Origin: Apostichopus japonicus
Lineage: Eukaryota > Echinodermata > Holothuroidea > Aspidochirotida > Stichopodidae
Length of the DNA stretch: 64,000 nucleotides
NCBI RefSeq assembly: GCF_037975245.1
Contig: NC_092582.1
Span: forward strand, 22,530,577-22,594,576
Direction of reading: 5' to 3'
Part shown: positions 15,201-59,071 of the stretch, piece after piece
Position numbering within the stretch: position 1 is the first letter of the stretch
Layout of the letters: the number at the start of each line of letters is the position of its first letter
Position numbers and translations under genes: made by a program
Notes under the pieces: model-generated
Database searches by the model: none
Told to the model about the DNA's origin: nothing
Seen by the model: only the letters and a program-made list of their open reading frames with translations

Positions 15201-18200
15201 CGGCCGGATTTCATGTACTATCCGGCAAAATCCGGTTCCGGCCGGATCCAAAAATTTGGATCCGGTGCATCCCTAGATGAAAGGTCCTTACCGATGTGGT
15301 GTTCTTATATAATAAATATTGATTTTATTTAAAAACAATTGTCATTCCCAGATGGCACCTATCACAAGATTGGTTATTACTCAGATGCTACTGACAACCT
15401 GACCATGGTGAACACAACAGAGGAAATATGGCCAAGTAAGACCTGATGACATCTTAAATGCAGACGTTTTTTTTGCTTTTCTTGTCATCATTTATGTGTT
15501 TTATCCTGGAACAAAAAAAAGATTCAATATTGAAACAAAAAGGAAATAAAGATTCAATCTCTGACCTTTCATACTGCCAATTCCAATATGATTATTATGA
15601 TTATAACTATGATTATTACTATTACTATTATTGGGATTATTATTTATTATTTTTATTATTATTTTTATTATTTTTATTTTTTATTTTTATTATTATTTTA
15701 TTATAATTGAAAGAGAATTAACAGGATTCTATATTGAACTATCACATCCCCCAATGCGTTGTGAGTACTTTGAGCAAATTTTGTTGACCTATCGGTGTGG
15801 GTATAAAGAAATGAACACTATAGGTCTCTGTGCACTATTTTTGTCGTTGTACTGTCTCATTACCCAGAAATCACCGTTCGCTCCAAGACTTCTCAAATCT
15901 CTTTTACAGAAATTTATTATATGTTAAAAGAGAATTAACAGGGTTCTGTATTGGATTCTCACATCGCCTCAATGCATTGTCAGTACTGCGAGCAAAGTTT
16001 GTCAACGTGGGTATAAACAAACGAACGCTATAGGGTCTCTGTGCACTATTTCTGTTGTCGTACCGCCTCATTACCCAGAAATCACTGTTCGCTCCGAGAC
16101 TTCTCAAATCTCCGCGCTTGATTCAGCAAAGCAATTCTTCCACCGTGATGGAAAAGTGCATCCAATTTGTCAAAGCAATGTTCCTTTCATGGCACATTGA
16201 TTATTTGTACTTTACACGAAATAGCTGGTGGAACGTAAACAAAATTTACACCCCCTTTCCATCTTTTCTTGTTCTTCAATATTCCATTTTTAGAATACCT
16301 CTGTTCTGATTTAGAACAACCTCTTACTGCTATAGCCAATATTGTGAGAACTACTATGAATTAATTTGACATCTAGAATTTGTGGGGGGGGGCGGGTGGG
16401 GGAAGGGGAATGCTTGGCATCGAAGCATGCATGTTCACTTTTGTGGAATCACTATCGATGGGTTATTTAACCCTTAATTTTTGCATGAACGAGGAATGGG
16501 GATATATCGAGGAAAATGATCTCTGGGGGTTACTGATGTGAGAAATTACTTTGTAAAATATGCAGGAATAAAAAAATGCAAAAAAAACCCGAAAACTAAA
16601 AATTTGTCAAACTGCACATTTGTGACCTCAGTTTAAAAGGTAAGCAATTAATTTGGAAGTTCAATATAAATTTTATTCTTTGTGAACAATAACAACTTAA
16701 ATTATTTCTTTGCCTTCGTCTAAACATTCTGCCAAGTTGCAGACATCTCACGGATGCTATATTTCGATTTAGTATCAATCATCCAAATAGATGCTATACT
16801 TTAGCACAACTGAACTCAGCGTGATCGGGAGTTACAAGAACTTCAACCATTAGTACAGCTATTAGAGGAACAATACCACTGGTTTCAGCTTGACTGGGCT
16901 CCACATAATAATAAATAATAATAATATGTTAATTCTATATTACTGGAAGTCAATGAATGAAGTGCGAGTGATCGGGCGACAAACGTTTTCTTGCGGATAG
17001 TCATTGGTTGATGTCATTCTATTTATAAAACCAACCCAGCCGTCTTCAGACCATTTTTGATGAGTTTTGAAATCTCTTCTGAGGATTTTAATGAAAAGTG
17101 AAAATCTGCATGACTGTCTAATTAAGCTGCATGTGTAAAAAAGAAGGTCTATATAAACCTAGGCTGTGTGATGTGGCTGCATGGTACATTAGGAATTAAC
17201 AGTATATACTGAAGACAAGTGTAATTAGAAGTGTTATTAACATGGCTCTGAAGTGTATCCTATCAGATCAAAGTGGGTGTTTTTTGCCAAGCACCACATT
17301 TACAAGCATTTCAAGAGAAAATCTAAGCATGAATCATTCACTTGAGACATGATTTTTCAAGTTATCCAAACTGCAATGAAGCAATGCTTTTTATAAAAAA
17401 TTATGAAAGCATGGGGCTAAATGTGCTATAACCATGGTAACACTTTACATTTTAACCAACTTTTTTAACTCTGATGATAATCTCTTTGCAGATGGTATAC
17501 CAAAGGACGGTGTGGACGAGAGGATTGAGTGGAAGTACATTTCAAAGAGCTGGTATATCCCAGCATGCCTCTTGGCATCACTGACCATCATAGCTGCCAT
17601 CTGTTGTATCATATTTAACTTCCTTTATCAACACACCAGGTATGCAACATTGTTATAAAACATTTAGATTCTTAGACAAGTGCCAAGCTCGTCCATGCGT
17701 GTGCATGTCGTAGGTTTTAAAAAGGTGTGTCTGTGCAGATACACATATCTTGGAACTGCCGATGGCTCCACAAGCTTGTCCATGTGTGTCCATATCATGG
17801 GTCCGCAAGCACGTCCATGTGTGTGCATGTCATGGGTCCACAGGAACGTGTGTGCATGTCATGGGTCCGCAGGCACATGTGTGTGCATGTCATGGGTCCG
17901 CAAGCACGTCCATGTGAGTGCACATCATGGGTACGCCAGCACGTCCATGTTAAGTTGCTTGAAATATTTGTAAAGGATCGAGTTCTTTTCCCCGAGTGTT
18001 GTGAATGCGTGGAATGACTTGCCTCTGTCCTCTTTCAGAGTGTTATATTAATTAAGTGGCTTGAGGAATTTTTTAGATGGTTAATTTAAGAATTGCAGCA
18101 GGATTTTGATTTTTCTGTGTGTTTAGTGTTTCTTTCCTAGGGTCCTTGATGGGGCCTTAATTTTAGTCCCGCCCCGATCCTCTTCAATACATCTATGTAT

Positions 18201-21200
18201 AAAATTCTCCTTATTGTTTATAAATCACTTAAAGGACATGGTCCAATGTATATTTCTGACTTATTACATATTTATGTCCCCTCTCGTAATCTAAGATCCA
18301 GCTCTCAATTTTTATTATCTGAAATTAAGTCCAAACATTCTTGGGGGGGGGGGGGTAGGTCATTTATTGTTTCTGCCCCTCGCTTATGGAACCAACTCCC
18401 CTTAAAAATCAGACAAGCATCTACTCTCTCTTACTTTAAGAAGAGCATCAAATCCCATTTAATGACAAAAGCTTTTATATAATCTTGAACCATTAAGTTT
18501 TTCTTCTGTCATTGTTTTGTATTATTCTGTATTATTTGTATCATTTCTCATTGTCAATTGCGCCTTGAACATTCTTTGAGTGGTGTGTGCGCATTATAAG
18601 TCGTATTATTATGATTATTTATTATCTAAACATGTCATCTCAATTCTCTTCTGTTCTCAAATGCAGCTATATCAAATGCTCACAGTGTCACATCAACAGT
18701 ATCACAGCATTGGGGTGTGTCATCTCCTTAATGTGTGTTTTTCTTCTGGGTCTGGATGGCCAGTATGTCTCTAATACAGTCTTTCCTAAGACATGTCATG
18801 TGAGTGAAATCTTTTCTTTTCAGGGAAAAAATTGAGAATTTTCTGAGTTACATCTGAAGGCTATTTAAAACCGTTTTGTGAAACCTATTTGTTATTTTAT
18901 CATATTAGTTGTAATGCTTTCCACACACTTTTCTTCTTGTTGTGATTCAGTCTCTAAAATTCTGTACGGTTGTAGAGCTCACAGAAATAGGTTAGGATAC
19001 AAATATTCCGTCGTGGAATGGTCTAAACTGGTGGGCACGATAGTAATCTCGCCCACCACAATGAGATTTTGTACCCAATCCAGCACCCTCATCACTGTTA
19101 CTCGCACCGTGGCACAGAAAACATTGTTCCAGTATATTAAAGGTTTAGCAAGCTGCATCATTAGGGTTTTGAAAAACTTCATGTCCACCACAGAAAATGT
19201 TGACAGAGGGCAGTATGCTTGGATATGGGTCATAATTGTGTCCACCTGTGATAAACTTTCTGCAGGTTCAGTTTAGCTTCACGGGTATTGGAGTGCTGTC
19301 TATCAAATTTAACAACACTAGATGTAAACCACGACAGAGAAGTTATGATATTATTTAACCAACAACAGAAGCCATTTCATTTCACTCATCTAGCAGTGAC
19401 AAAAGACGCTTAGTCACTCTAATACCCAGCAGCCAAACCTGCAACACTTTGAGAGCCATAGTACTTCTGCCTCATCGGTTGGTCATACCTTTATAAAATC
19501 AAATTCAAGAGGGGAAAAAAATGCCTCAAGTAAACATGTGTGACCATGGAAGTACTACATCGGTTGCATTCGCAGTTCGCTTGAAGAATGTGTTGATATC
19601 TTTGCTAAGATATGCCATGCAGTTTTCACTTCAAATGTGAGAAATATAAGAAATACCACAGTGTATTATATCTACCTTTGGTTAGCATGCATATCTGTTT
19701 ATATCTTCTTCTTCTTCTTATAGTTTAAAAGAACGATTCAAGTTATATTTGCATTTCTCAGGAGATTGAGTTGTTTTACTTTTCTTGATTTATTTTATTC
19801 TGCAGGCTATCTCATGGCTGTTGAGCATCGGTTTTTCTCTTGGTTACGGGTCAATGTTTTCCAAGATTGTGATGATGCACTCCTTAGTTACGCAAGAGAA
19901 AACTGACGAGGACGGGAAGCGAAAAAGGAAAAAAGTCAGCATGCAGGTGAGGCCCTATGATGACTCATGTCCCTGAGAAATCAAAAGAAAACACAGATTA
20001 ATAGTTGCCATGGTGATCATATGAATGTTAGTCATACGGGCATATTCCCGGATGATTTCATTATCAAAGACTCGTCACAATTTCAGAAGACTGCTGTGCG
20101 TTTTCTTGATTACCTTGATTTACTCAGTAAAATCAAACAACAGTCATTATTCATAACTGCAGTAGATCAAGCTGTGATGTGATCCCGGGGCTACCATACA
20201 TCGTGATTAATTGTGGTTAACCATCCCACTTTGGCTGGGAAATGATATTGCTTGGCCGCAAAACCATTGTTCCAGATTTCTAAAGGTCTTTGTGAAGTGC
20301 AAAAATATCACTGTCTTTTTATGATATGCAAACTAAAACTTTGACTTCAGAAGTGGGGGGTGGGGTGTTGGGGATGTAATTTGATATTTAATCATGTTTG
20401 ACTATAAACCATACTAAATTAACCACTCTTTTGCCTACAAAAATTTTCCATAAAATAAAAAAAAAATTGGGAAATTTTATGCTAAACTGAACTGATGTAT
20501 AAAGCTGTATTAAAATATGCCAACGTGAAAGCTCATTGTGTGAGTCTTTGAGAAAGAAAGACTCCATTCTGCATCTTTTGACATGAGTTTGTAGTCACTG
20601 ACCAATAAATCTTGATGATAATATATATTGATGATATATATTGATGATGATTGATGATGATATGATTGATGATATGATGATGATATGATTGATGATGACC
20701 ATTTATTGATGATGATATTGATGATATATATTGATATATAACAATAAATATTGATGATGTCCCTCATTGGGTTTTTATCAGTTTTAATTTCTCTCTCTCT
20801 CCATTCCACCAAAGAATGTTAAGACCTGGAGGATGTACATCACTATTATAATTATTCTAGTCGTCAACTTGGTGTTGCAGTTAATCTGGCAGATCATGGC
20901 TCCCATGACCAGAAAGGTTGATACTTTCTTCAGCGTTACCGTAAAAGATGTCCGAATAATTCCTCAACTAGAACATTGCGAAGCTGATAATTTGGCAGTG
21001 TTCTTAGGTAAGAGTTTTGTTACCACAGCAACGGTCCTTGGTAACACTTGGTAACACTCCTCATAAGTTAACAGGCTATAATGTTTTATGAAATACTAAC
21101 CAATTCCAAGGTTTTTCATCTAAGGATATACAGAAAAAGGTTTTGTGGTAGGCATTGGAAGCAAACGCCTGTTGCGTTACTCCTAGTTTTCAGATACTAA

Positions 21201-37084: not shown

Positions 37085-40000
37085 TTTCTATACCATTTTA
37101 ACGATGGCTCAATGGCTTGCAAAATGATCAAATTTGGACGAAAAATCACGGTTCTCCAATTTCATTTCAAGATTTGATATTCATATTAGATATGTTATTT
37201 TAATGAGTTGGGACCTATTTTAAAAGCTATTATTGTCTGATGTATAATCCAAAGGTCAACCTCCGTTCTCCGCATCTATTTGGGAAGATTCTAAAAAGTT
37301 GCTAATTTTGGTCGAAATTGATCAAAATGATAAGGCTATAGCCTTGCAAAATGATCAAATTTGGACGAAAAATCAAGGTTCTCCAATTTCAGTCTCGATG
37401 TTCATAATGGATAAATAGGGATCAGAAACACATTCCTCTCATCTTAAAAGTGATTTTCCAATCGATTTTTCGCCTTAATACAGATATATGAAATTATAAC
37501 ATCAAGATTTGATATTCATATTAGATATGTTATTTTAATGAGTTGGGACCTATTTTATAAGCAATTTATGTCTGATGTATAATCCAAAGGTCACCCTCCG
37601 TTCTCCGCATCTGTTTAGGAAGATTCTAAAAAGTCGCTAATTTTGGTCGAAATTGATCAAAATGATAAGGCTATAGCCTTGCAAAATGATCAAATTTGGA
37701 CGAAAAATCAAGGTTCTCCAATTTCAGTCTCGAGGTTCATAATGGATTAATAGGGATCAGAAACACATTCCTCTCATCTTAAAAGTGATTTTCCAATCGA
37801 TTTTTCGCCTCAATATAGATATATGAAATCATAACATCAAGATTTGATATTCATATTAGACAGTGGCGTCACCAGACTTTTCAGTCTTGGGGGTGGGGCA
37901 CATGGGGGGCACCAGCATTTGATGGGGGACACTTAGGTGGATACGGATCGCTGTCCTGGGTGAGGGGTCTAAGGGGAGGGGGTGTACTACTCCCCTTTGG
38001 AAAATTTTGGCATACGGAGGATGGGCTAGATGCAAAATGGTGCCACATTTGATGCTAAATTCGATCTGAAGATATCTCCGGAAATTGCAATATTTGAGGT
38101 AATGATTTTAACAACGGGCAGAATTTTGCAGAGGATATGAACCACATGCTGTCGATATTATGCCTAACCCTATCAATAGAACCTACATTTGTTGAATTAA
38201 TGTGTGCATGAACCCCGACTCCTTTCTTGTCCTTCTCGTTTTCTCCCATTATCTATTAAGATGTAACAGGTTCCAGCATCGTTGTTGGCTCCTATCAGGG
38301 ATCTCACCATGCAATCCAAAGTTGGATCACACATCGAGTATGGCTCAGTATGCAGGTGTGAATATTTGCCATTTGTTCCTATAAGCATCTGACCTCAAAT
38401 GACCTCTGCACCCCCTACACAACAGGGTTAATATATGAGTCCACAAATATAGGCAAGTATGGTGCCTGCGGACCCTCACATTCTCACATTTCGTCAGCTC
38501 CTAACATGTCAACCTCAGACCAAGGCAACATACTGCAGTACCCTCCCTTCTCACAGCAGGTCCAGATTTTCGGCATTTCACAGGCATCCAATTCACGAGA
38601 GGTAAAAGACACACACAGACAGCAGACAAGCACTCTCACCCATATGACAAATGCACACAAAGGCCCACACAAAGGCCCTCAAGGTTAGGGTTCAGAGCAA
38701 CGATATTACTCATCGGTCCAGAAAAAATAAAGCGCGTTCTTTCATATTCTGAGGTCAGAATCATGAGAAAGGTCCAGAAATAGTGTTCTCTGGCGAGTAG
38801 GGGTGGCCTACTTTTCAGGAATTTGATTGGACTGCACCTAGTGATTTTCTGAATAGTCGTCCTACTTCCTAGGAAATAAAAACACGGCTGCAGCACAGCC
38901 AGAACAGGGAAATTCATTGTTTTGAACGATGAGTCATGTAGCTCGCGAAGCGGACGTGTATAGCCGCTGGTATGGCGTGAGCACTGACACATTCAATGTA
39001 AATATCGACACCTGTTGTGATGGCGCGGGTTACGACTTCGATAGCCGACGGTCAAGGATAAACTTTTTCATATTTTCGCAGCTCATTTGAAGAAAATACG
39101 AATTACTGTGCTTCTTTGTCCTTATGAAAAACCAACTCATATGATGGGAGTTGAATATAACAAACTATATATATTTTTCTTACCAACCAAAATCTCAGAT
39201 GGGGGGCACTCGGTTTTCCAGGGGGGCACGTGCCCCCCCCTTCCCCCCCCCCCTTGGCGACGCCACTGATATTAGATATGTTATTTTAATGAGTTGGGAC
39301 CTATTTTAAAAGCTATTATTGTCTGATGTATAATCCAAAGGTCACCCTCCGTTCTCCGCATCTATTTGGGAAGATTCTAAAAAGTCGCTAATTTTGGTCG
39401 AAATTGATCAAAATGATAAGGCCTTGCAAAATGATCAAATTTGGACGAAAAATCAAGGTTCTCTAATTTCAGTCTCGATGTTCATAATGGATAAATAGGG
39501 ATCAGAAACACATTCCTCTCATCTTAAAAGTGATTTTCGAATCGATTTTTTGCCTCAATATAGATATATGAAATTATAACATCAAGATTTGATATTCATA
39601 TTAGATATGTTATTTTAATGAGTTGGGACCTATTTTAAAAGCTATTATTGTCTGATGTATAATCCAAAGGTCACCCTCCGTTTACAGCATTTATTTGGGA
39701 AGATTCTAAAAAGTCGCGAATTTTGGTCGAAATTGATCAAAATGATAAGGCTATAGCCTTGCAAAATGATCAAATTTGGACGAAAAATCAAGGTTCTCTA
39801 ATTTCAGTCTCGAGGTTCATAATGGATAAATAGGGATCAGAAACACATTCCTCTCATCTTAAAAGTGATTTTCGAATCGAATCTTGGCCTCAATATAGAT
39901 ATATGAAATTATAACATCAAGATTTGATATTCATATTAGATATGTTATTTTAATGAGTTGGGACCTATTTCAAAAGCTATTATTGTCTGATATATAATCC

Positions 40001-42590
40001 AAAGGTCACATCAAGGTCGATTTTTTGCCTCAATATAGATATATGAAATTATAACATCAAGATTTGATATTCATATTAGATATGTTATTTTAATGAGTTG
40101 GGACCTATTTTAAAAGCTATTATTGTCTGATATATAATCCAAAGGGCAACCTCCATTCTCCGCATCTGTTTGGGAAGATTCTAAAAAGTCGCTAATTTTG
40201 GTCGAAATTGATCAAAATGATATGGCTATAGCCTTGCAAAATGATCAAATTTGGACGAAAAAACAAGGTTCTCTAATTTCAGTCTCGATGTTCATAACGG
40301 ATGAATAGGGATCAGAAACACATTCCTCTCATCTTAAAACTGATTTTCCAATCGATTTTTTTGCCTCAATATAGATATATGAAATTATAACATCAAGATT
40401 TGATATTCATATTAGATATGTTATTTTAATGTGTTGGGACCTATTTTAAAAGCTATTATTGTCTGATGTATAATCCAAAGGTCACCCTCAGTTCTCCGCA
40501 TCTGTTTGGGAAGATTCTAAAAAGTCGTGAATTTTGTTCGAAATTGATGAAAATGATAAGGCTATAGCCTTGCAAAATGATCAAATTTGGACGAAAAATC
40601 AAGGTTCTCCAATTTCAGTCTCGAGGTTCATAACGGATGAATAGGGATCAGAAACACATTCCTCTCATCTTAAAAGTGATTTTCGAACCGAATCTTGGTT
40701 TTCATATAGATATATGAAATTATAACATCAAGACTTGATATTCATATTAGATATGTTATTTTAATGAGTTGGGACCTATTTTAAAAGCTATTATTGTCTG
40801 ATGTATAATCCAAAGGTCACCCTCCGTTCTCCGCATCTATTTGGGAAGATTCTAAAAAGTCGCGAATTTTGGTCGAAATTGATCAAAATGATAAGGCTAT
40901 AGCCTTGCAAAATGATCAAATTTGGACGAAAAAACAAGGTTCTCCAATTTCAGTCTCGAGGTTCATAATGGATGAATAGGGATCAGAAACACATTCCTCT
41001 CATCTTAAAAGTGATTTTCCAATCGATTTTTCGCCTTAATAAAGATATATGAAATTATAACATCAAGATTTGATATTCATATTAGATATGTTATTTTAAT
41101 GAGTTGGGACCTATTTTATAAGCTATTATTGTCTGATGTATAATCCAAAGGGCACCCACCGTTTACAGCATCTATTTGGGAAGATTCTAAAAAGTCGCGA
41201 ATTTTGGTCGAAATTGATCAAAATGATCAAATTTGGACGAAAAATCAAGGTTCTCCAATTTCAGTCTCGAGGTTCATAATGGATAAATAGGGATCAGAAA
41301 CACATTCCTCTCATCTTAAAAGTGATTTTCCAATCGATTTTTCGCCTGAATATAGATATATGAAATTATAACATCAAGATTTGATATTCATATTAGATAT
41401 GTTATTTTAATGAGTTGGGACCTATTTTAAAAGCTATTATTGTCTGATGTATAATCCAAAGGTCACCCTCCGTTCTCCGCATCTATTTGGGAAGATTCTA
41501 AAAAGTTGCTAATTTTGGTCGAAATTGATCAAAATGATAAGGTATAGCCTTGCAAAATGATCAAATTTGGACGAAAACGCAAGGTTCTCCAATTTCAGTC
41601 TCGATGTTCATAATGGATAAATAGGGATCAGAAACACATTCCTCTCATCTTTAAAGTGATTTTCGAATCGATTTTTCGCCTCAATATAGATATATGACAT
41701 TATAACATCAAGATTTGATATTCATATTAGATATGTTATTTTAATGAGTTGGGACCTATTTTATAAGCTATTATTGTCTGATGTATAATCCAAAGGGCAC
41801 CCTCCGTTCTCCGCATCTATTTGGGAAGATTCTAAAAAGTCGCGAATTTTGGTCGAAATTGATCAAAATGATAAGGCTATAGCGTTGCAAAATAATCAAA
41901 TTTGGACGAAAAAACAAGGTTCTCCAATTTCAGTCTTGATGTTCATAATGGATAAATAGGGATCAGAAACACATTCCTCTCATCTTAAAAGTGATTTTCG
42001 AACCGAATCTTGGTTTTCAATATAGATATATGAAATTATAACATCAAGATTTGATATTCATATTAGATATGTTATTTTAATGAGTTGGGACCTATTTTAA
42101 AAGCTATTATTGTCTGATATATAATCCAAAGGGCACCCTCCGTTTACAGCATCTATTTGGGAAGATTCTAAAAAGTCGCGAATTTTGGTCGAAATTGATC
42201 AAAATGATAAGGCTATAGTCTTGCAAAATGATCAAATTTGGACGAAAAATCAAGGTTCTCCAATTTCAGTCTCGATGTTCATAATGGATAAATAGTGATC
42301 GGAAACACATTCCTCTCATCTTAAAAGTGATTTTCGAACCGATTTTTTGCCTCAATATAGATATATGAAATTATAACATCAAGATTTGATATTCATATTA
42401 GATATGTTATTTTAATGAGTTGGGACCTATTTTAAAAGCTATTATTGTCTGATATATAATCCAAAGGGCACCCTCCGTTCTCCGCATCTATTTGGGAAGA
42501 TTCTAAAAAGTCGCTAATTTTGGTCGAAATTGATCAAAATGATAAGGCAAAATGATCAAATTTGGACGAAAAATCAAGGTTCTCCAACTT
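37085..42590. repeat. Satellite array, ~330-bp monomer, about 12 units
   Basis: The block GAAATTGATCAAAATGAT recurs about 12 times at spacings of about 315-340 bp. Each unit carries GCAAAATGATCAAATTTGG, CACATTCCTCTCATCTTAAA and AGATTTGATATTCATATTAG. Units are about 90-97% alike by eye. The array is split by an insertion at 37861-39268. A truncated unit near 39960-40060 lacks most of the GATCAAAATGAT half. No coding frame persists. Confidence 0.95.
37861..39268. mobile_element. hAT-like non-autonomous element, 1408 bp, inserted in the satellite
   Basis: It begins CAGTGGCGTCACCAGAC and ends TTGGCGACGCCACTG, an imperfect terminal inverted repeat. The flanks carry the identical 8-bp ATATTAGA (37853-37860 and 39269-39276), matching the uninterrupted satellite monomer with one copy duplicated. 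Subterminal regions are G/C-run rich (GGGGGGCAC at both ends). No transposase frame is visible inside, so it would need a helper. Confidence 0.9.
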
Positions 42591-44693: not shown

Positions 44694-44706
44694 TATAAAT
44701 AAATAA
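44694..44706 (-). promoter_or_regulatory. AU-rich element in 3' UTR of the helical cytokine-like gene
   Basis: On the minus strand the transcript reads TTATTTATTTATA, beginning 28 bases after the stop. It contains overlapping ATTTA pentamers and the TTATTTATT nonamer that marks rapidly degraded cytokine and early-response mRNAs. The local AT-richness raises the chance of coincidence. Confidence 0.5.
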
Positions 44707-44733: not shown

Positions 44734-44931
44734 TTAACGACCGGTTTTGGTGTCGATAAGTCTCCCGATGAGCTCCAAGAGGTTTACCTTGGCTCTTTCA
44801 AGATAGTACTCAAACTCCTCAATAATGTACAGACATTGCATATACAAACACTCTCCGGCGCATATTTGATTGTTAACACTTCTGGCTATCCGAACAGAGT
44901 TTCCGGGTGAATTTCCGGCTGGATATCCTTT
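44734..44931 (-). CDS. Cytokine-like exon 5: CD loop and helix D, stop TAA
   Basis: The acceptor is TTCTCTTTCAG; phase 0; ends in TAA (44736-44734). It encodes residues 155-219. A Gly/Pro/Ser-rich loop (KGYPAGNSPGNS) precedes a long amphipathic helix with three cysteines (QICAGECLYMQC) and EEFEYYLERAKVNLLELIGR. Confidence 0.75.
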   Translation of the reverse strand, partial: KGYPAGNSPGNSVRIARSVNNQICAGECLYMQCLYIIEEFEYYLERAKVNLLELIGRLIDTKTGR

Positions 44932-46662
44932 CTGAAAGAGAATGATAGAATATTTAACTCAATAATCTATACCTAAATGTATATATATTCCCCTTTTTCT
45001 TAAGACATTAGTTACACCTTACGCATTGTTTTACTGTGTTCGAGTAAAACTCCCGTGTAATATTATCTGTTCACAATTATCGGGGTAGTATACATCCGCC
45101 TGAAAAGAATAGTCCTGTACATGAACTGGTAAAGTGACTTTAATTTTGCCAAATATTCGGTTACAATCACTCCTTTTGATGCTTGGATGTTGTAGAGGAT
45201 GAAACTACTAATGGGTCTAAAGATCTTAAGGATTGAAGGTTATTTAAAGCGTTTTATCAATTGCAGGGGTGAGAAACAGGCAGATTCCGCAACGAAGAAC
45301 TGGCAGATGGGTTTGGTAGTACCATATGCTAAATTTCTATCTCTTCTAACTCAGAAACTAAACGTCCATTGTCACCGTGGTAACATTTGAATGCGCTGAG
45401 ATAGCCTACACTCTATCAGCTATCATATGTTGGTGGGATAAGACATGCCTGGTTGAACACTTTTAGTATAGCGGCTTTGGAAAGTGACTTATTTAGTGTG
45501 TTAGTCAATGGAGCAGTTCAACAAGTGGAACGACACCGTTTCATGCCTCCATTGACTAGTAATATATGGTCATAAAGCAAAGAAATCCCTTACCTGAAGG
45601 ATAAGAAGCTCGAATCGGTCCAGAATTTCTCGAATCTCGAAATCTATAGTGGTCGCATTGTGATATAGACCAAAGCCTTCAGCGTCAGCCTCATCTAACA
45701 GTATCGCGCCTATTTCCAGGTAAGCATGGAGAAACGTTGTCAGAATATCCGAGTGTAGAAAATACAGCGATGTCAAATGGTTGTGAAGATCCTGAAGGAA
45801 TATGAAGGGAAATATTATTTGGGGAGCCAAACGAGCCAAAAACAAAAAAATATGCTTATTAAAGACGTTGAGGTATTTCATGATATACTTATACCACCCC
45901 CCCCCTTCACCTCCACCTCCATACAGAAGAAAGCAGTAGAACTTCCGAGTGACTCTCTCATCGGAGCCAGTAGGGGGTTGTAATTGGGAAATCGGTAAAA
46001 TAAGGCCCTCCCCTATGGCCCTCCCAAAATGAGCACAATTGTCCGAACACCTTCCAGCAAAGCATTTATCAACTTTCTATTTTCGGGTAGCGTCTGCCGC
46101 ACAGCTTAATAAAGGGGGAAGAGGAGGGGTGGGGAGGGGGAGAGAAGAGGTGTACACGGTGGTTCCAATGAACGTTAGTCCGACATTGGATTCGCTGGCC
46201 GTATGATGCAGCACCAGGGAGCATTGAAAAATTATCATAGTTGTACAGGTTTGTACGCAAGTTCGAATAGGGGAGGGGTGTTTGGTGGGGGTGGGGTGGG
46301 GTGGGTTGAGGTGAGGTGAGGTGAGGGAGGGGGTAACATTGTTTCATGCTCCTCTTCTCCCACTTCAAACATCTATGTATATTTCCCTTCTAACATTAAT
46401 GATACTTACAGCAGAATTATCGTTGTACCAATCCAGTCGCGAGAGGTTCGTGGAGAGCATTTCCATTCCTTCGATAGTAATATTTGGACTGGTTCTGTCT
46501 TCGTTATTAAAGCGATGTTGTATCTAAAACAGAAAATACTCTTTATTATAAACGACTGAATTAGGGAGCTTAGGATACACTTTAAGATAATGTTTGTTCA
46601 TCTTCTTGCCGTGAAGAGAGGCTTTTTTTTTACTCCAGATTAAAGCAAAAGCAAACAATGAA

Positions 46663-46700
<38 letters not shown>

Positions 46701-48231
46701 TCCTAGAATATTGACAGTAAAATTTACATATTCTTCAAGAGTTTTGAGTTCCATTCTGAAGTGGGATACTCGATATATATATATATATATATATACATAC
46801 ATATATATATAAGTACATACCCCGACTTATTTAGGTAAGAACTGAACCTATATGTAATGAGCAGAAGCGAATGAAGGATTCTTTTAATCAGGAATTGGCG
46901 CTGGGCCGTTGAAGTCGACTCCTGTGTATGGGATTCATTTAAACAGTTTGTGAAAGTTTCGTGACTTATAAAATTAACCGTTTAACATACTCACAAAATG
47001 AGATCTAAAGTCATCGTTGTATTCTTTCAGCGAGAGGATAAAACGCTTGGCGCTTTCTAGATGGTGCAACTCGTCACAGGTTACATATCCAACTGCCAAC
47101 ATGTACACCAAAACAACTATGGAAGAGCATAAAACCATCAGTTAGACACATGAAGAATAAAAAAATATTCTGTTTTTCAATCAATGAATTATGAGATTAT
47201 TCAATTCATTCATTAATTATGGGATTAAAATCATATAGTATATAACAAAACTGTCTTGGATAAAAACAACAACAAAATATGTACCTTTCCTTCATTTTTT
47301 TTGTCATAAAGTTTAGTACCGTACCATAAAAGATACTACTTTTGTTGGCTGCAAAATTTTAAAACTTGATCTACATATTGCTTATAAACCAGTGCTTAAA
47401 CGCATATATTCTCATTAAAAATGCTCTATATAGGAGTGTTAGCTCAGTGTTTACGCCGGTGCCTTCCAATCATAGGGTCCCCAGTTCGAGTCACTCCAAG
47501 ATTAATGTATGTCGTCCAGTTACAGAGTTGTTGACAATTGACAATTCATAATCATGGACGTTAAATATGAACCTAAGAAACTGACTTCGGTCAGCTTGCG
47601 GCTTTGATAAGCCAATGAGGCTTCTTCGCGAGTTCCTGATTGCAGGGGGATCTAAATACAATACATACAAATATAACGTCAAGTTAAGCATGACACATGG
47701 CTTTAATGGTCTTCCGTACCTATATACACTGATTGACGGGTACGCTTCAAACCACCGCAAAACTAAACAAAGGGGAGAGTTCTTCAAACTATTTTGCGCT
47801 GCATGATACAGTTACATGTATACGCAATGCAGTAGAAGTTAGTCAACCACAAATCATAACACCTGAAGATTATGCGATATTTACTACAAATCAATAAGAC
47901 TGACATATCTGAAGGAGGCATACAATAATGTGCGCTATTAAAATGTATTTTCATTTTCATTCTTAGTAGGTACGATTGGACAAAGTAATGACACTAATGA
48001 TACATAGTTAAAGAGCTATAGAACAGCCTATCATATACAAAGTCTAGCCTATATACGGGCCTTCAAGTGCATACTGCAGTTAAGAATGCCTGACACAAGA
48101 TATACTTGACAACCACATGAAATTTGCGTCACTTGAAGTGAGGAGCACACGAACACACACACACAAAAGAGTAATAAAAATATAAAGGTATATATGTTCT
48201 TACCAAGGTATCCACTGAAATTCTGTTCCAT
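44734..48231 (-). CDS. Secreted all-alpha protein, candidate IL-6/G-CSF-type four-helix cytokine (5 exons, 219 aa)
   Basis: Joining 48204-48231, 46995-47116, 46410-46523, 45594-45791 and 44734-44931 (minus strand) gives 660 bp, 219 residues plus stop. All four introns have good GT-AG sites and phases 1, 0, 0, 0. Residues 1-23 form a signal peptide (hydrophobic VVLVYMLAVGYV). The rest is helix-rich: about 24-50 (helix A), 68-83, 89-121 (helix B), 136-154 (helix C) and 166-214 (helix D). Sequons are at N64, N76 and N133; cysteines at 23, 178, 182 and 187. Size, signal peptide, phase pattern and a last helix with EEFEYYLERAKVNLLELI match the long-chain class I cytokine layout (IL-6, G-CSF, growth hormone, EPO). 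The likely role is an extracellular signal for a JAK/STAT-type receptor. That role is inferred: sequence identity to any named cytokine is too low to claim orthology. Another helical secreted protein remains possible. Confidence 0.72.
45594..45791 (-). CDS. Cytokine-like exon 4: helices B and C
   Basis: The acceptor is ATTCCTTCAG and the donor CAG|GTAAGG; phase 0 both sides; residues 89-154. It starts DLHNHLTSLYFLHSDILTTF and continues through LHAYLEIGAILLDE, an acidic turn with sequon HNATT, and FEIREILDRFELLILQ. In IL-6/G-CSF-type genes this exon also carries helices B and C. Confidence 0.75.
46410..46523 (-). CDS. Cytokine-like exon 3: AB connection
   Basis: The acceptor is TTCTGTTTTAG and the donor GCT|GTAAGT; phase 0 both sides; 114 bp, residues 51-88. 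A polar segment with two sequons (PNITIE, TNLSRL) leads into a helix with MEMLSTNLSRLDWYND. Confidence 0.72.
46524..46994 (-). other. Intron 2 of the cytokine-like gene with two (TA)n tracts
   Basis: (TA)n microsatellites lie at about 46664-46692 and 46771-46811. No other feature is seen. Confidence 0.75.
46995..47116 (-). CDS. Cytokine-like exon 2: rest of signal peptide and helix A
   Basis: The acceptor is CTTCCATAG and the donor TTT|GTGAGT. Two bases complete G|TT. It encodes residues 10-50: VVLVYMLAVGYVTC completes the signal peptide, then DELHHLESAKRFILSLKEY and NDDFRSHF form the first helix. Confidence 0.74.
47436..47670 (+). mobile_element. tRNA-derived SINE, copy B, in intron 1 of the cytokine-like gene
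   Basis: The head GTTAGCTCAGTGTTTACGCC and CAGTTCGAGTCACTCC match copy A at 27053-27296. The body AAGATTAATGTATGTCGTCC, TTGACAATTGACAATTCAT and the tail GATCTAAATACAATACATAC also match. The copies are roughly 85-90% alike by eye. It is antisense to its host gene, as copy A is. Confidence 0.85.
48204..48231 (-). CDS. Cytokine-like exon 1: ATG and start of signal peptide
   Basis: ATG at 48231-48229 begins MEQNFSGYL and leaves one base before the donor G|GTAAGA (phase 1). A short first coding exon ending in phase 1 is typical of GH, EPO, IL-6 and G-CSF genes. The context AACTTGAAGATGG is acceptable for initiation. No upstream in-frame ATG is needed. Confidence 0.68.
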
Positions 48232-48271: not shown

Positions 48272-48287
48272 TATATTATATAATATG
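48272..48287 (-). promoter_or_regulatory. TATA-like element of the cytokine-like gene
   Basis: The minus strand reads CATATTATATAATATAAC 41-56 bases upstream of the ATG. If used as a TATA box it would give a very short 5' UTR of about 10-25 bases. Confidence 0.4.
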
Positions 48288-48576: not shown

Positions 48577-48586
48577 GGGATTTCCC
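48577..48586. promoter_or_regulatory. kappaB-like site GGGGATTTCC
   Basis: GGGGATTTCC fits the NF-kappaB/Rel consensus GGGRNNYYCC and lies about 346 bp upstream of the cytokine-like ATG. A site of this degeneracy is expected by chance roughly every several kb. Confidence 0.4.
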
Positions 48587-58852: not shown

Positions 58853-59071
58853 CCAAAACAGAACTAGCATTGTTCGATACAGACGGCAGAAAGCCTACAG
58901 GAATGACGACCTTCCTTACTGGCTTCGAACCTCTGGAGATACAATCTGTCTCCACAGCCTAGTTGGTTAGGGTGTCCGCGTACAAAGCGGGAGGCCCGGG
59001 TTCGAATCCCGGTGGAGGGTGGAAATTTGTTCACTGTTCTGGATATCCAACTCATTGCCGTCTAAGTATAT

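Follow-up and report, generated by a model that had tools for sequence, protein, structure and literature searches.

The gene on which this analysis centres, W, lies on the minus strand of the window (the whole 64-kb stretch of DNA analysed; C22:22530577-22594576), where five small exons of 28, 122, 114, 198 and 198 nt join into one frame of 219 residues closed by a TAA stop. All four introns are GT–AG, with phases 1,0,0,0. This five-exon, minus-strand model had been proposed in an earlier note; rebuilding it returned the same 219 residues, with coordinates exact and splices and frame intact. Exon 1 (48204..48231, minus strand, as are all five) provides 28 nt from the ATG, which has a purine at −3 and a G at +4, and is followed by the phase 1 intron. 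Exon 2 (46995..47116) encodes the remainder of a presumed signal peptide (VVLVYMLAV) and then a helix-prone stretch, putative helix A (DELHHLESAKRFILSLKEYNDDFRSHF). Exon 3 (46410..46523) is loop-like, a putative AB loop of 38 residues carrying N-glycosylation motifs at N64 and N76 and a conserved Gly69. Exon 4 (45594..45791, 66 residues) holds two helix-prone stretches, putative helices B and C, separated by a short link and including a conserved Leu109, a conserved Asp121–Glu122 pair and a further glycosylation motif at N133. Exon 5 (44734..44931) runs from a loop through a conserved cysteine pair (Cys178 and Cys182) to the strongest amphipathic stretch of the protein, putative helix D (YIIEEFEYYLERAKVNLLELI), and the TAA. 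The Gly/Pro/Ser-rich segment that the earlier note took for the CD loop does begin this exon, ahead of the cysteine pair, and we retain it as a putative loop. Cleavage of the leader is presumed from its hydrophobic character, read by eye; on this basis the mature part (residues 24–219, approximately 196 residues) would have a mass of 22.8 kDa and a pI of 4.95, and would retain N64, N76 and N133, a fourth motif (N4) lying ahead of the leader.

Several short elements flank the gene. A possible TATA box (TATATAA, 48276..48282, minus strand) sits 51 nt upstream of the ATG, in a window where TATA-like words are frequent (3.8 per kb); in P1 and all nine genes of the tandem array T1–T9, relatives described below, TATAAAT lies at −108 to −115 from the start codon. 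A weak match to the NF-kB consensus GGGRNWYYCC (GGGAAATCCC, 48577..48586, minus strand) is found at −355. The strict consensus occurs seven times on the plus strand of the window; the 1-kb upstream regions of the 11 paralogs lack it and contain one looser match, in P1 (−915). Two overlapping UUAUUUAWW nonamers (44694..44706, minus strand), likewise weak, follow the W stop by 28 and 32 nt; within 300 nt of the stop, none is present in the nine tandem genes or the second single gene, P2, and P1 has one at 241 nt. AU-rich elements of this kind are known from cytokine mRNAs. Together, the NF-kB-like match and the AU-rich nonamers would hint at an inducible, short-lived message, a hint that carries little weight because the tandem genes lack both. 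Elsewhere in the window, three tandem arrays of a 335-nt satellite-like unit (37167-42587) stop approximately 2 kb past the 3′ end of W. A tRNA-like element at 58948-59020 (plus strand; Rfam tRNA, 42 bits) is called as tRNA-Cys with anticodon ACA, and is perhaps a tRNA-derived repeat, since Cys tRNAs usually carry another anticodon. The open frame at 18150-18482 (plus strand) has no Pfam match at E 0.1 and, by its motifs, presumably resembles the C-terminal part of a LINE reverse transcriptase. Ten window ORFs of at least 100 aa (of 38 listed) gave nothing above cut-off against Pfam.

The mitochondrial COX1 gene of the source genome (C35) agrees best with conserved positions when AAA is read as Asn (for instance in the TNHKDIGTLY motif) and AGA as Ser, the code of echinoderm and flatworm mitochondria. 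Read with the vertebrate code it yields no 400-residue open frame, and a vertebrate source was rejected; a sea cucumber is a plausible host. Searching the genome from which the window comes (671.6 Mb, 35 contigs) with W exon 5 returned the exon itself and a single weak match on the same chromosome (C22; 41% identity over 29 residues, E 1.15). That match belongs to P1, a complete five-exon gene (19, 164, 105, 186 and 174 nt; phases 1,0,0,0; 215 residues). P1 in turn opens up a family: with its exon 4 as query, nine tandem genes are found at E values from 4e-5 to 2.4e-4; with its exon 5, those nine return at E 2e-16 to 4e-16, joined by P2 at E 1.5e-9 and by W at E 0.785. The P2 model comprises exons of 19, 152, 111, 189 and 171 nt (phases 1,0,0,0; 213 residues), and each tandem gene exons of 19, 161, 105, 189 and 174 nt (phases 1,0,0,0; 215 residues), with 9/9 frames open and 36/36 introns GT–AG. 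The family therefore numbers at least 12 genes on one chromosome. Eleven lie within 7.15–7.31 Mb, the nine very similar tandem copies spaced approximately 11–17 kb apart (7.175–7.29 Mb) with P1 and P2 as flanking genes; W is solitary, 15 Mb away. The array is a recent expansion of this cytokine-like family. W is a distant member: of the three exon-5 queries from P1, P2 and T8, only the first recovered it. The P2 and T8 searches recover P1, P2 and T1–T9, and otherwise only weak matches on C5 and C6; we set aside these helix-D-like segments (E 2.3 and 7.7), the C5 one having no clear exon in 300 bases. W exon 4 finds only itself in the genome at E 0.001, and in tblastn of the family exons against the window the convincing matches are limited to W's own exons. 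A viral origin was also considered and rejected, viral contigs yielding 74 pattern matches and no relatives by tblastn.

All 12 gene models share five coding exons, phases 1,0,0,0, a first exon of 19 or 28 nt and a hydrophobic leader, and in every one exon 5 contains the cysteine pair and a “[YF][IV][LI][QE]EF” stretch. W exon 3 aligns with that of its paralogs (35 or 37 residues), keeping Gly69. Exons 1–3 of P1, P2 and T8 were sought with the W plan as guide, making the shared 5′ plan not fully independent; for P2, the rule demanded a phase-1 start for exon 2, for which one of two donors was chosen, and exon 1 was picked from six candidates. The phase-0 borders of exons 3–5 are better supported because P1 and tandem-gene exons match there, at 40, 42 and 59% identity for exons 3, 4 and 5 (E 2e-4, 3e-9 and 4e-20, within the fetched loci).

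Could the W exon chain be fortuitous, or a gene copy that no longer functions? It is known from DNA alone, its exon 5 reaches the nearest paralog genome-wide only at the E of 1.15 given above, and two of the three paralog searches miss it. Exon-4-sized open segments with splice signals are not rare in themselves, a simple rule finding three in the window over both strands. Set against this, every W splice site and the frame are intact, and the exon plan is that of 11 other gene models. A profile built from paralogs only (P1, P2, T1, T7 and T8) and run over six-frame segments of at least 15 residues across the whole 64-kb window ranks W exon 5 first at E 1.2e-4, with the runner-up at 2.8. Against the same profile the joined W protein scores E 2e-4, above 2,000 of 2,000 of its own shuffles (best shuffle 0.2). 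It is this paralog support, not any single open frame, that makes W real beyond chance, and we regard an artefactual or dead gene as very improbable.

The tandem copies are under purifying selection. Pooled over five exons, their pN/pS is 0.29 (36 pairs, whose counts are non-independent); by exon it is 0.46 for exons 1–2, 0.13 for exon 3, 0.24 for exon 4 and 0.31 for exon 5. A candidate extra exon between exons 3 and 4 of the tandem genes (E4a, 49 residues) was rejected, with a pN/pS of 1.88, a GT donor in 3/9 genes and an in-frame stop in 2/9. Evolution thus supports the five-exon tandem model beyond its open frames, given the contrast between 0.29 and the 1.88 of this neighbouring segment. 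The selection test covers the tandem copies, W having no close copy to compare. Taking splicing, paralogs and selection together, we read W as a well-supported five-exon gene, belonging to a family whose secreted products are supported by sequence evolution. Eight lone exon-4-like open segments also lie on the strand opposite the array genes (for example 7180884-7180696 and 7277666-7277478, minus strand), two of them frameshifted. No other exons were seen nearby in the one unit inspected, and the segments probably represent what is left of another gene of the family.

The residue pattern of W gives a mixed picture of its putative helices. Amphipathicity exceeds that of shuffled sequences in B and D (p 0.026 and 0.008) but not in A and C (p 0.18 and 0.36). 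On a simple propensity scale, W helices B and D come out as strand over much of their length, a tendency that is stronger in P2 and T8. An up-up-down-down bundle requires long AB and CD loops, according to PMC7378365. With helix ends placed by inference, exon 3 would provide 35–38 residues between helices A and B across the family, approximately 27 residues would precede helix D in W, and the BC link would be short; these spacings would fit the bundle topology. Exon 3 is devoid of cysteines in W, P1, P2 and all nine tandem genes, and the conserved cysteine pair precedes helix D.

Sequence comparison gives no link to a known cytokine: Pfam, PDB, global alignment and hhalign all failed to detect significant similarity between the family and IL-6, G-CSF or any other Pfam or PDB cytokine. 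As used here hhalign is a weak test, IL-6 against G-CSF as single sequences scoring only 1.7%. The best PDB profile match (8ga7, THR5, which we take to be a designed helical protein; E 0.0027) was rejected as the sum of six weak stretches. Profiles for PF00489, PF00103 and PF09240 found nothing above cut-off in this genome, weak evidence given that no control genome matched either; the same applies to the silence of PF00103 (growth hormone/prolactin) at E 1, its control being likewise silent. This lack of a sequence link is one of the reasons to consider an echinoderm-specific family of secreted all-helical proteins with some other job—pheromone, carrier, defence or matrix protein—whose cytokine likeness would be convergence. 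Others are that secreted, fast-diverging, tandem-expanded families of other kinds are common, and that the cytokine fold is only putative, with its mixed helix and strand propensities.

The gene plan argues the other way. IL6, CSF3, growth hormone (GH) and erythropoietin (EPO) genes have common intron phases of 1,0,0,0, and human IL6 has a coding first exon of 19 nt and an exon 3 of 38 residues. Five exons in phases 1,0,0,0, with a tiny exon 1, a loop-like exon 3, a two-helix exon 4 and a D-helix exon 5, is the long-chain class I plan as generally known. All 12 models follow the five-exon, 1,0,0,0 part of it, a count to be read with the guided search for paralog exons 1–3 and with reference phases taken from general knowledge. 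W matches human IL6 in its phases and 38-residue exon 3, and the paralogs match it in their 19-nt first exon. The same five-exon plan is that of the growth hormone/erythropoietin class. Product lengths (219, 215 and 213 residues, and nine of 215) lie within the roughly 180–220 residues of secreted long-chain class I cytokines. The mature proteins moreover share just two conserved cysteines, where carriers and toxins would usually be disulfide-rich. A different job for an unrelated helical family consequently strikes us as unlikely, if a good deal less so than the artefact considered above.

The earlier note had likened W to ligands of the IL-6/G-CSF class. Size, leader and five-exon plan uphold that resemblance; a match to the PF00489 profile and cysteines in the AB region do not materialize. 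As in IL-6 and G-CSF (PF00489), the W family is secreted, of approximately 200 residues and encoded by five exons, with presumed long AB and CD loops. IL-6 and G-CSF have disulfides in the AB region; unlike them, the W family shows no sequence similarity to these proteins, has an AB-loop exon without cysteine and places its cysteine pair before helix D. It also differs in comprising 12 genes, nine in tandem, and in its non-vertebrate host. For G-CSF, the five-exon, four-intron structure is described in fish (carp) and in mammals (human and mouse) alike (PMC6389648).

A class II-type helical cytokine, of the interferon/IL-10 kind, would have similar general size, helices and a multi-exon gene, and interferons are typically tandem-expanded. 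The introns of IL-10 and interferon-lambda are all phase 0, with signal peptide and helix A together in exon 1; in the W family exon 1 is only six or nine codons long and ends in phase 1. These borders make a class II assignment improbable.

We therefore favour, with a probability of roughly 0.64, the reading of W as a secreted, long-chain four-helix bundle, a class I-type helical cytokine acting via JAK–STAT. For fold, receptor, signalling and function, we infer the following course. The mature protein would be released by cells and fold as a four-helix bundle, exon 2 supplying helix A, exon 3 the AB crossover, exon 4 helices B and C, and exon 5 both the CD crossover and helix D. The cysteine pair would pin the CD loop to helix D. 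Faces of the bundle would engage two receptor chains, binding and clustering a gp130/IL-6R-like or CRLF3-like receptor, and this clustering would in turn trigger JAK–STAT signalling. Candidate partners can be glimpsed in the same genome. No STAT domain is found at E 0.001, and three STAT_bind stretches lie collinearly within 5.5 kb at C4:25122506-25128002 (plus strand), all below cut-off (E 0.007, 1.3 and 0.7); individually weak, together they are likely to mark a STAT gene. A possible class I receptor exon lies at C2:4457158-4457256 (plus strand), which matches positions 1–33 of the IL-6 receptor binding domain (IL6Ra-bind) below cut-off (E 0.78, 19.3 bits).

If this cytokine reading holds, the closest invertebrate parallel by description is Drosophila Unpaired (Upd1–3, the Domeless ligands), likewise a secreted helical JAK–STAT ligand. 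The Upd fold is helical. The W layout is instead the vertebrate long-chain plan, and the comparison is one of description. Upd is described as the insect ligand of the JAK–STAT pathway (PMC13203501). A role as CRLF3 ligand is an alternative for W because this receptor is an orphan across eumetazoan groups: PMC8063046 describes CRLF3 as a class I receptor found in all major eumetazoan groups, its endogenous ligand not identified at the time of that account. CRLF3 is a second orphan class I receptor (PMC8063046, PMC6797617).

As given in PMC13203501, a 2026 BLAST survey that included echinoderms (E ≤ 1e-5, identity ≥ 30%) placed IL-6 family ligands in vertebrates only, and found IL-6R-like receptors in a sea urchin. 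According to a 2012 paper, sea urchin lacks any apparent system of signalling through cytokine receptors (PMC3296744). Among the titles and abstracts listed from the openly accessible literature, to which most subscription papers and all preprints do not belong, none describes an echinoderm helical class I cytokine ligand; an earlier description is possible. The W family may be a long-missed invertebrate cytokine. In its strongest form, to which we give even odds, the proposal is that echinoderms possess true long-chain class I cytokines as a fast-evolving tandem family, which shares an ancestral gene with IL-6, G-CSF, GH and EPO and is recognizable by gene structure alone. Such proteins would be the missing ligands of echinoderm IL-6R/gp130-like or CRLF3 receptors, and the ligand class would predate vertebrates. 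If so, a ligand family invisible to BLAST-type screens would be recognizable via its exon phases and helix plan, and the origin of helical cytokines would become directly testable with concrete proteins and receptors.
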